This document shows, in pieces, positions 13,165 to 28,347 of a stretch of 50,260 nucleotides of DNA. Below the pieces are notes generated by a model. The model did not search any database and was not told where the DNA came from. It saw only the letters and a program-made list of their open reading frames with translations. Positions within the stretch are counted from its first letter, which is position 1. Every line of letters begins with the position of its first letter. The stretch comes from an uncultured Emergencia sp. GTDB taxonomy: Bacteria > Bacillota > Clostridia > Peptostreptococcales > Anaerovoracaceae. Both the position numbers and the translations under genes were made by a program. The DNA lies in the NCBI GenBank assembly GCA_904420065.1, contig CAJFTU010000056.1, forward strand, positions 1 through 50,260, written 5' to 3'.

Positions 13165-13470
13165 TGCCATATTGTGAAGTAAATTTTTGATTTCAGACAG
13201 CCGGAGACAGAAGTTATGCGTAAAAATGCCATACTGGTGTATTTTTTTCTTTATTTCAGACAGTTTTTTTCGTCTGCATAACGGGAAAATACAGATGTAC
13301 GAAAAAATATAGCGAATATGTTTTGCTTATATTGATAAAATGTAGAAAGTATTTGGCGATAACAGTGATTTCTCCGTCTGAAACTCTAAAAAAATTAAAG
13401 AATATGGCACATTTGTTCTTTTCTCCATTTTCTACTGTCTGAAATCAAAAAAAGGGGGGTTAGTATGGCA
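13165..13470. repeat. Dispersed inverted-module element, copy A
   Basis: A 306-bp intergenic element is built from four 36-37 bp modules. Each module is a left box close to TGCCATACTG, a 16-17 base T-rich spacer and a right box close to TTTCAGACRG. Forward modules are at 13165-13200 and 13227-13263. Inverted modules are at 13374-13409 and 13435-13470. The gaps are 26, 110 and 25 bases. Copy B at 28041-28347 has the same order and nearly the same spacing. The last inverted module contains an ATG (13465) that opens a long frame into the downstream ATPase gene, but that start lies inside the repeat and is unlikely to be used. Both ends read AT-CTGCC...GGCAG-AT, which may reflect terminal inverted repeats. 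No coding capacity is seen. Confidence 0.8.
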
Positions 13471-13659
13471 GATCTTAAATTTTTGGATGCAACTTCAGGA
13501 GATGAAGCGCCGGGTTGGAAAGACCGCAGGCATCTCTGGCAGTCTGCTAAAGGCAAAAGATCCATGACTCCCGTCCGCCGCCGCGCGCCGGCAAAATCCT
13601 TGTTTAATCTTGTAGAAATTTGTGGTAGAATAGAGCCATCAATAAAAGGAGAAGATGAA

Positions 13660-16014
13660 ATGTTGGGATTAACAAATCAGGAGGCAGAATCGAGACGTCG
13701 TCAGGGATTATCCAACGAGCAGGTCGACTCCTCCACCAGAACAGTAAAGCAGATCATCAAGGACAACGTATTCACTTACTTCAATTTGATTTTTACGGTA
13801 CTTGCCGTTTTACTCATTGCAGTCGGTTCGTTCAAGGACCTGTCTTTCATGCTCATCGTATTTGCCAATACGGGTATCGGAATTGCGCAGGAAGTGCGCT
13901 CCAAGCAGACGCTGGATAAGCTGAAGCTGCTGAAGATGCCCAAGGCCCATGTCATGCGGGATGGAAGGGAGACAACCGTCCCCGTAGAGGATCTCGTTCT
14001 TGACGATGTGATCATACTTACGGCGGGGAGCCAGATTCCGGCCGACGCCACCGTAGTAGAAGGGAGCATTCAGGCAAACGAAGCACTGATTACGGGAGAA
14101 TCGGATGAGATTACGAAGACAAAGGGATCGCAGCTTCTGTCGGGAAGCTTCGTGGTTTCCGGACGCTGCGCCGCAGTTTTGACTGCAGTAGGGCGGGAGT
14201 CCTACATATCCAAACTGACCATAGAAGCGACTAAGGATAAGCAAAACGAGCAGTCTGAGATGATCAAATCTCTGGACAAACTGGTAAAAGTGGTGGGAAT
14301 CATCATCATTCCCGTCGGAATCGTACTCTTCGTTCAGCAGTGCTTCATTCTTGAAGGCGGCTTTAGAGAAAGCGTAACCTCAATGGTAGCTGCGGTTTTG
14401 GGCATGATTCCCGAAGGACTGTATATGACCGCCAGCATCGCCATGGTGGTCAGCGCTATGCGGCTCGCCAAGCACGACGTACTGGTGCAGAACATGCGGT
14501 GTATAGAGACGCTGGCCCGCGTCAATGTACTTTGTGTGGACAAGACCGGGACCATAACCGAAAACGAAATGAAAGTCTCGGAGATGTATCAGGTATACGA
14601 CCGTATCGATCGGGAGGATCTGACCCGTTTGATCGGAGACCTGGCCAAGGCGCAGAGTCCGGACAATATCACCATGGCCGCACTGCAGGCTTATTTTACC
14701 GAAACCGCAGGAAGGGAGGCCAATACGGTCTGCCCGTTTTCTTCGAAATATAAATACTGCGGAGCCACCTATGAGGATGGAAATTTTGTCCTCGGCGCTC
14801 CTGAGTTTGTTCTGCGAGATGAATTTTACCGCTATGAAGAGCATATAACGGAAATCAGTGAGCAGGGTTACAGGGTTTTGGCTTTTGCCCGCACAGAAGA
14901 CGTTCCGGAAGGGCAGCCTCTGCAGGGTAGAGTACAGCTTCTTGCGCTGATCTACCTGACCAATCCTATTCGAAAATCGGCGAAAGAGACTTTCGAGTAC
15001 TTCGCGGAAAATGGCGTAGAGATCAAAGTTATCTCCGGCGATAATCCGGTTACGGTATCCAATGTCGCTATGGAGGCGGGTATCGCTGGAGCGGAAAAAT
15101 ACGTGGACGCACGGCAGCTGGTCAGCGAGAGAGCCATCTTCGAAGCCGTGGAGCGTTACACCGTCTTCGGCCGTGTAACGCCGGAGCAGAAGAGACTGTT
15201 TGTAAAAGCATTGAAGAAGCAGGGAAAGACCGTAGGAATGACCGGCGACGGCGTCAACGATATTCTGGCTTTGCGGGATGCCGACTGTTCGGTGGCTATG
15301 GCCTCGGGAAGTGAAGCGGCATCTAACGCCGCCCAACTGGTGCTGATGGATTCGGATTTTTCTAAGATGCCTTCGGTTGTCAGCGAAGGACGCAGAGTAG
15401 TCAACAATATCGAAAAGTCGGCCAGTTTGTTTTTGTCGAAAAATATTTTCTCCTTGCTGCTGGCTCTGTTTTCCATGATCAGCGTGCTGTCTTATCCGCT
15501 GAAACCGTCTCAGATCACATTGATCAGCCTGTTCACTATAGGAGCGCCTTCTTTCGTTCTCTCTCTTGAACCGAATAAGAACCGAATAAAAGGTTCCTTC
15601 TTTGGCAATGTGTTTAAGATGGCCGCGCCGGCGGGCATCACCACTTTTATCAGCGTCAGTTCGCTGGTCATTTTCGGACAGGTGTTCGAGATCGACAGCA
15701 ACTGCATTTCCACGTCGTGTACCGTTCTGGTAGGACTGGTCGGATTCATGATTCTGGCCAAGGTTGCCCAACCCCCGAACAAGCTGCACGTCACTCTGAT
15801 CGCGGTAATGCTTCTGGGTATGGCTTACTGCCTGTTCTTTGTGAAGGATTTCTTCGGCATTGAGCCGATTTCCACACAGGCCGCCATGCTGCTTGTAGTG
15901 TTCCTCATTGCTACAGAGGCGCTGTTCCGCTATATTTACAAGTTTACCAACCTCTGCGGCAAATTGCTGAGGAAGGTTCCCAGAAGGAAAAAAAGTAAAA
16001 AAGTCCGCGGCTGA
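13660..16014 (+). CDS. P-type cation-transporting ATPase (CtpE-like)
   Basis: The protein is a membrane ATPase of 784 residues in the HAD P-type superfamily, most like the CtpE/calcium-type group. It has an N-terminal cytosolic part, transmembrane pairs near 35-80 and 215-275, and an actuator domain with Thr-Gly-Glu-Ser. A Pro-Glu-Gly-Leu motif lies in the fourth helix, where the ion is bound. The phosphorylated Asp294 is in Asp-Lys-Thr-Gly-Thr, the hinge is Thr-Gly-Asp-Gly-Val-Asn-Asp, and five or six C-terminal helices follow. A basic tail of Arg/Lys ends the protein. No Cys-Pro-Cys motif or heavy-metal domain is present, so Ca2+ or Mn2+ is more likely than Cu or Zn; the ion is not proven. 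ATG 13660 is chosen for its AAAGGAG site 8 bases away. A 65-codon upstream extension begins inside repeat copy A and looks non-coding. Confidence 0.85.
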   Translation: MLGLTNQEAESRRRQGLSNEQVDSSTRTVKQIIKDNVFTYFNLIFTVLAVLLIAVGSFKDLSFMLIVFANTGIGIAQEVRSKQTLDKLKLLKMPKAHVMRDGRETTVPVEDLVLDDVIILTAGSQIPADATVVEGSIQANEALITGESDEITKTKGSQLLSGSFVVSGRCAAVLTAVGRESYISKLTIEATKDKQNEQSEMIKSLDKLVKVVGIIIIPVGIVLFVQQCFILEGGFRESVTSMVAAVLGMIPEGLYMTASIAMVVSAMRLAKHDVLVQNMRCIETLARVNVLCVDKTGTITENEMKVSEMYQVYDRIDREDLTRLIGDLAKAQSPDNITMAALQAYFTETAGREANTVCPFSSKYKYCGATYEDGNFVLGAPEFVLRDEFYRYEEHITEISEQGYRVLAFARTEDVPEGQPLQGRVQLLALIYLTNPIRKSAKETFEYFAENGVEIKVISGDNPVTVSNVAMEAGIAGAEKYVDARQLVSERAIFEAVERYTVFGRVTPEQKRLFVKALKKQGKTVGMTGDGVNDILALRDADCSVAMASGSEAASNAAQLVLMDSDFSKMPSVVSEGRRVVNNIEKSASLFLSKNIFSLLLALFSMISVLSYPLKPSQITLISLFTIGAPSFVLSLEPNKNRIKGSFFGNVFKMAAPAGITTFISVSSLVIFGQVFEIDSNCISTSCTVLVGLVGFMILAKVAQPPNKLHVTLIAVMLLGMAYCLFFVKDFFGIEPISTQAAMLLVVFLIATEALFRYIYKFTNLCGKLLRKVPRRKKSKKVRG

Positions 16015-27933: not shown

Positions 27934-27981
27934 GAGCGCAGCTCGAGCATCGATAAGAGATGATCGGGCTGCGTTCTTTTT
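27934..27981 (+). terminator. Terminator of the aldo/keto reductase gene
   Basis: A long imperfect stem begins at GAGCGCAGC (about 27934-27942), closes at GGGCTGCGTTC (about 27966-27976) and has CTTTTTG after it. Confidence 0.7.
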
Positions 27982-28040
27982 GCATAGGAAGCCATATACA
28001 GTGCATCTCTGCCGGGCTCCCGTCTCTTTCTCTTCCGATC

Positions 28041-28347
28041 TGCCATACTGTATGGAAAAAAGGCCGTTTCAGACGGCAAGAATGTGATCTTCTGCTGAAA
28101 AGTGCCATACTGGGCAGAATTTTTTTCATTTCAGACGGATATTTTCCGGTCTGTCGCGTTGGATTTATGGGGAAATCGTCTACAGGTATGACTTGAGATG
28201 TACTAAAGGTAACCTAACGGGAATCGCGCTTGGATCGTCAGACAAAAAAGCGTCTGAAATAAAGATTTCCTTGTACAGTATGGCAGATTTTTTGTTTTAC
28301 CTCTATTTCGGCCGTCTGAAATCAAAGAAAAAACAAAGAGTATGGCG
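28041..28347. repeat. Dispersed inverted-module element, copy B
   Basis: This 307-bp element has the same plan as copy A at 13165-13470. Forward modules are at 28041-28076 and 28103-28138, inverted modules at 28250-28285 and 28312-28347. Every module has a box near TGCCATACTG, exactly 16 variable bases, and a box near TTTCAGACGG. The gaps between modules are 26, 111 and 26 bases. The short inter-module segments are also recognisably related to copy A, while the 111-base centre has diverged strongly. It lies between the aldo/keto reductase terminator and the promoter of the DUF1638 operon. No open frame of note is present. Confidence 0.8.

Follow-up and report, generated by a model that had tools for sequence, protein, structure and literature searches.

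In plasmid P1, parS is a single site whose A and B boxes are read by two parts of one protein, with arms that flank a bend, and in bacterial chromosomes matS is a short single site that is conserved across related species. A two-part DNA-binding domain that includes an AT-hook contacts the ends of Sleeping Beauty and other Tc1-type transposons, and a tetramer pairs them (as outlined in PMC7827188); the movement of REPINs is attributed to a single-copy gene located elsewhere (as summarized in PMC3116915).

The window analyzed here, by which we mean the whole stretch of 50,260 nucleotides on contig CAJFTU010000056.1 of an uncultured Emergencia sp. (GenBank GCA_904420065.1), carries two elements with four bipartite sites each. 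A first-pass annotation of this DNA had described them as copies A and B of one inverted two-box layout, and both are present as described, in position and in geometry alike (Table 1).

Table 1. Coordinates of elements A and B, their modules and adjoining features in the window
Feature	Position	Strand	Remarks
Element A	13165..13470	.	four modules forward-forward-reverse-reverse, 306 bp
A module F1	13165..13200	+	TGCCATATTG-N16-TTTCAGACAG
A module F2	13227..13263	+	17-base spacer
A module R1	13374..13409	-	
A module R2	13435..13470	-	start of listed ORF 13465-16014 falls within
Element B	28041..28347	.	four modules, 307 bp, subfamily I member
B module F1	28041..28076	+	
B module F2	28103..28138	+	
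B module R1	28250..28285	-	
B module R2	28312..28347	-	
B two-fold axis site	28186..28203	.	counterpart, by alignment, of a palindrome (best form GTATAACTTAAGATATAC) in other subfamily I copies
Terminator-like hairpin upstream of B	27935..27982	+	flank alignment read by eye

Eighteen elements in the window's genome

The window's genome (G000; 2.41 Mb) contains 72 modules of the form GCCATAY..N..TTTCAGACRG, arranged in 18 elements of four modules each, two forward ones followed by two reverse ones. A first pattern search returned 39 exact modules, and a relaxed scan of the DNA around these gave the 18 elements. Spacers are 16 bases long in 69 modules and 17 bases long in the other three. The 18 copies are 296-338 bp in length and intergenic by mechanical ORF calls; short, non-coding and dispersed in several copies, they share these traits with MITEs. 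A profile built from the 69 ungapped modules gave 76 matches in the whole assembly, namely the 72 modules (E <= 0.013) and four from E 0.48 onward, at chance level, and this search detected no solitary, decayed, fragmentary or fossil modules in the genome. Within the window, the two-box pattern matched seven of the eight A and B modules, missing the one that starts CGCCATA, and 100 shuffles gave 0 matches. The initial proposal thus withstood the search, with 18 four-module elements in the genome and boxes that do not behave like random intergenic sequence.

Ten of the 18 copies, B included, can be aligned end to end and are referred to as subfamily I, while any pair that includes one of the remaining eight shows 44-61% identity across the element plus its 25-bp flanks. 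No clear link was seen between element orientation and GC skew. The P-type ATPase ORF 13465-16014, as listed, begins within element A; since homology starts near residue 44-65 in most congeners and an in-frame ATG is found at 13660, the true start of the ATPase is probably downstream of the element. Flank similarity among subfamily I copies seemingly reaches left to the hairpin upstream of B, so that this hairpin is possibly part of the repeated unit. Similar terminator-like hairpins (GCGCCGC..AATCATC) occur upstream of several subfamily I elements, and in congener G006 a like hairpin follows tyrS at a place where there is no element.

Binding-site motif and its conservation

The motif logo was drawn from 69 of the 72 modules, those with a 17-base spacer being left out. 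In these aligned modules GCCATA and TCAGAC are invariant, module position 8 is C or T without exception, positions 18-19 are always A/T, and position 20 is A/T in 68 of 69, with a single C. Ahead of the box, A stands at -2 in 66 of the 69 modules and T at -1 in 48; because AT also precedes the inner modules, the AT outside the outer boxes is part of the binding motif. One of the three modules with a 17-base spacer deviates (GTCATA). From the conserved module positions, we read three putative contact regions of one bipartite site. Box B in reverse (GCCGTCTGAAA) matches the DNA uptake sequence core of Neisseria, probably by coincidence.

All 48 core columns are invariant in the 10 copies of subfamily I, and the non-core columns differ by 37% on average (28-43%), with the copies nearly equidistant. 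Neutral expectation, on a star tree with equal rates assumed, is ~104 changes in 480 core bases; six further columns had entered the core set of this calculation by accident, and the true 48 were taken from the alignment. Outside the boxes, 2532 transitions were counted vs 1521 transversions. That the boxes are kept in copies that look old, with ~37% divergence and no detectable target duplications, argues for constraint acting in place once the copies had inserted. Purifying selection in place is the simplest account of this box survival, and it would mean a live function.

An imperfect 18-20-bp palindrome lies at most 1 base from the two-fold axis in seven subfamily I copies. It is 5 bp off axis in C28a, a copy whose gap is 11 bp shorter, and falls below the listing threshold in B and C39; at the B axis the palindrome is weak (GTATGACTTGAGATGTAC, 5/9 pairs, counted by hand). 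Over all 18 elements, the central palindrome scored 4.8 vs 4.2 in shuffles (95th percentile 6) and is not a general property of the family.

Geometry and helical phasing

Successive A boxes are offset by 62/62 in 14 elements, by 61/61 in C11, C40a and C40b, and by 62/61 in A. The F2-to-R1 gaps in the window's genome are 100, 109 (2), 110 (3), 111 (8), 120, 121, 142 and 143 bp, and the resulting classes (100/109-111/120-121/142-143) are separated by steps of about one helical turn, apart from 1-2 bp. In the related family of congener G005, described below, modules F2 and R1 start 164 or 165 bp apart in seven of 11 elements and 175 bp apart in the other four; in two further elements, mutually alike, the distances are 81 and 82. 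For the five class offsets of the two genomes, the summed deviation from whole turns is 2.6 bp (p 0.0003 vs uniform phases), a value that applies to classes chosen after the data were seen and to 12 G005 elements, with L280 (81 bp) and two carrying IS inserts left out. Short transposons also display helical-phase effects, so phasing alone cannot separate mobile ends from a host complex.

A sister family in congener G005

About 15 elements with the same four-module architecture and other box sequences were found in G005. The pattern search gave 43 matches there vs 17 for the reversed control, and the G005 elements therefore rest on the ordered four-module grouping and not on the raw count. In an alignment of 11 of these elements, box A occupies all four places in 11/11, with one substitution in 2 of the 44 boxes. 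Two pairs of copies share 93% identity across 377 and 387 bp and have flanks that are unrelated, which marks out a discrete movable unit of ~380 bp; movement as a discrete unit, as in MITEs, is thus seen in G005. The units have tips of CACGGCAAACGCATGAAA or near it at both ends, 27-30 bp outside the outer modules. The ends AT-CTGCC..GGCAG-AT suggested by the first-pass annotation are accordingly not the unit ends in G005, where the tips lie ~28 bp further out than the outer box. As read by eye, target duplications of 10 bp flank three of the 11 elements (ATATTTATGG, AGACAAAGCG and TTACA(A/G)AAGA, the last with one mismatch), and the other elements have none. We read the discrete units, tips and duplications as traces of transposition. 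The C7 element of G005, which has a box A near that of the window (GCCATGTT) and a box B near that of G005 (ACWTGCGC), ties the two families together. Tip similarity between the two genomes is clear at one end in G000 only, that of C33.

Target duplications and candidate transposases

Among the 18 elements of the window's genome, no target duplications were found above the cross-pair background. Two bases are held in common one position outside both ends in 13 of the 18, a match that comes from the motif's own AT. No gene lies between the module pairs, and no partner transposon with the same ends was found in this genome; among the G005 modules found at up to 3 mismatches, there was likewise no partner with the same ends. 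The MITE-like character proposed at first is supported by G005, with its discrete units, terminal repeats and duplications. In G000 the signs of movement are indirect, namely the lack of such a module at the A locus of three congeners and on the rplQ side in nine. Of the transposase families searched for in G000, PF00872 and PF01609 gave 0 genes and PF00665 gave one (rve), which as a single match with no modules nearby was rejected as the partner. Draft assemblies can lose multi-copy IS, so a missing partner in G000 is no proof of absence. IS4-type (PF01609) genes were also rejected as partner, as no tips in common were seen at the 13 of their 18 loci that were compared.

G005 carries four copies of an IS256-type element, two inside four-module elements, a third 20 bp beyond an outer module and the fourth on the outer edge of the C7 element (sites C4, C7 and C8; L235, L231, L238, L239). 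This IS is an invader of the G005 elements, not their source or partner. That all four copies lie inside four-module elements or no more than about 20 bp away suggests a target preference; REPs are also known IS targets (reported in PMC8450116 and PMC3116915).

Distribution across other genomes

In a one-mismatch search of 349 family genomes, the window's own genome gave 68 matches, and exactly 68 of the modules in its 18 elements fit that pattern; 30 other genomes had one or two matches, vs 21 genomes for the reversed control. Among 391 class genomes, four others had a single weak match, under a stricter filter that caught 16 of the 72 own modules, so that weak relatives could be missed. Outside the own genome, the 348 family and 390 class genomes yielded nothing beyond isolated matches, one or two per genome. 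The exact two-module pattern gave 0 matches in IMG/VR, a collection that may leave out the own genome. The two-module pattern gave 2 matches, in unrelated phyla, in a species-genome collection from which the own genome may be absent; with one full-score module per locus and no four-module group above the control, both were taken as chance. Element B had no match among plasmids and phages.

A scan based on geometry only, and thus blind to box sequence, was run on stretches of congeners at a cutoff of S >= 38. Matches in real vs reversed control sequence were 19 vs 2 in the own stretches, 6 vs 1 in G005, 1 vs 0 in G006, 4 vs 3 in G007, 3 vs 1 in G008, 2 vs 4 in G009, 0 vs 2 in G010, 1 vs 1 in G011 and 0 vs 0 in G002, as well as in G160 (same family) and G049 (same order). 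Three of the six G005 matches sit in one direct-repeat array. Judged by numbers alone, the scan is convincing in no genome but the own one; the case for G005 depends on its two top matches and their copies. Groups of at least four modules at 61-63 bp, mostly palindromic, were seen by eye in G006, G008 (three kinds), G011 and G007. Such groups of at least four bipartite modules, mostly palindromic, lie at L226:7244, L229:13725 and L224:5394 (G008), L271:4221 (G011), L175:18195 (G006) and L140:6895 (G009, the weakest), and the half-sites of the G008, G011, G006 and G009 groups include GCACCAT, TGACCG, TGACAC, GTTGTGCA, CGGACT and TTTTCGG.

Genomic setting

Family-supported genes flank 12 of the 18 loci on both sides, and of these six are convergent, five co-directional and one divergent. 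Element C33 lies 210 bp from a contig end. The neighboring genes are read as tyrS, thrS, radA, hisD and rpoA-rplQ, as well as transporters and further genes. Both genes that flank element A are retained in G006, G005 and G002, where no module with the window's boxes is present, and on the rplQ side, at the C11 locus, nine readable congener loci are likewise without such a module. In the place of element A in G002, the intergenic region between tyrS and the ATPase (L076:650-1459), several GAGTATAAA..TTTATACTC repeats occur, with a geometry score not above the control. G007 has a tandem array beside rplQ; its arrays, at L213:6677-7100 and on L122 downstream of rplQ, are made of ~63-66 bp units whose ends are palindromic (TTGAGCAAA..TTTGCTCAA) and have a period equal to that of the window's modules.

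Two parS-like sites, one exact and one with a mismatch, were found ~1.8 kb apart in the window's genome (C46:57619 and 59395); they fall between elements C46a and C46b, about 30 and 46 kb away. The canonical 16-bp parS is absent from the elements themselves, the four places with at most 2 mismatches, of which these two are the best, all being elsewhere.

Discussion

We consider it probable that these are miniature, non-coding, MITE-like elements with two tandem bipartite sites per end, served by a transposase in trans or by its domesticated descendant. Each end carries two tandem ~39-bp sites, composed of GCCATAY, an A/T contact (WWW) and TTTCAGACRG and set 61-62 bp apart, and the two ends face each other over a gap near whole helical turns. 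A DNA-binding protein, putatively the transposase or its descendant, would occupy all four sites and bring the two ends together via a short loop. The anatomy, the four-site composition of all 18 copies, the invariant boxes, the phase steps and the parallel family in G005, with its movable units and target duplications, are observed, whereas the identity and activity of the protein and its continued binding to the window's copies are inferences. It is chiefly the G005 family that makes a mobile-type origin the best reading. The window's copies look old and immobile and may still be bound in place. Counting against this reading are the failure to find an autonomous partner, the lack of target duplications above background in G000, tips that clearly resemble those of G005 at a single G000 end, and the invariant boxes on long terminal branches, which differ from what is expected of dead MITEs.

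It is extremely unlikely that the inverted halves form a structured RNA or a cruciform. RNAalifold does draw long-range stems from the boxes, with at least one two-sided change in 13 of 59 and 8 of 52 pairs, but these stems are largely due to the conserved inverted boxes, covariation contributes little to the energy (-1.17 and -0.39 kcal/mol) and Rfam has no match at the elements. The reading was rejected on the comparison of spacers and linkers of the two halves, which match within elements little or no better than between them (.288/.280 for the first spacer,.345/.351, and.424/.385 for the second spacer, p.054), so that pairing is not conserved. The first-spacer values, together with the helical steps, support the earlier preference for protein-DNA recognition over RNA pairing. 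A single motif common to many loci could also be expected of the regulatory elements of one transcription factor's regulon, a reading that we find very unlikely and rejected on the neighboring genes, since those examined have no common function and six of the 12 resolved loci lie between convergent genes. That the elements are the ends of an IS256-type transposon is refuted as stated and retains next to no probability: two G005 elements do hold a 409-aa Transposase_mut gene between their FF and RR modules, but the IS has its own boundaries and its own 8-9 bp duplications at different positions in or beside four elements, its copies share 99.6-99.9% identity, unlike the arms around them, and G000 has no PF00872 gene.

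The strong constraint on the boxes in place, the phase-locked, two-fold symmetric layout, the lack of solitary or decayed modules and the frequent position at gene 3' ends beside unrelated housekeeping genes would all suit sites of chromosome organization or segregation, at which a multi-contact host protein gathers the 72 sites of the 18 loci for looping or anchoring, like MatP at matS. We nevertheless regard this as unlikely, because the elements occur in one species among 349 family genomes, the sister family in G005 has dispersed recently, with target duplications, and canonical parS sites are present separately. It is possible, and we put it forward tentatively, that former mobile elements are now used by the host. 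A resident, perhaps domesticated protein on all 72 sites would then pair the halves over the phase-locked loop, anchoring or insulating at gene ends, and its specificity would change by species while the phased four-site architecture stays.

Between the two sister species the recognition boxes differ and the geometry stays the same. Where boxes are preserved in diverged copies with no visible transposase, the question arises whether dead mobile elements are being kept as protein-binding sites. No account of such elements was found in a limited literature search by title and abstract opening.

Compared with known systems, the elements resemble P1 parS in having two box types and differ from it in occupying 18 chromosomal loci, with canonical parS present separately. 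Like matS, the site of MatP, they are dispersed chromosomal sites for what would be one binding protein (as described in PMC4738335), but there are four sites per locus and they were found in one species. With REPINs and RAYTs they share species-specific inverted site pairs that are extragenic and targeted by IS (in the account of PMC3116915). REPINs are there described as doublets with predicted hairpins, accompanied by singlets read as remnants (PMC3116915), whereas here the spacers do not pair, so the inverted pair is not one able to form a hairpin, no singlet is found and 10-bp duplications occur in G005. Bacterial MITEs, such as the Tn3-derived TIMEs, are similarly short, non-coding and dispersed, with inverted ends and movement in trans (as presented in PMC4133298); unlike them, the present elements have no partner transposon that we found, and their boxes are invariant in diverged copies. 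From Tc1-type transposons they differ in lacking a TA duplication (it is 10 bp in G005, and the common two-base match in G000 is the motif's AT) and in being about 300-390 bp long with no gene. They are like the IR/DR ends of Sleeping Beauty and the Tc1 type in having two direct repeats per terminal inverted repeat, four sites in all (as outlined in PMC7827188), and represent a class of bacterial elements whose end sites are doubled and phase-locked, in a design akin to those ends.
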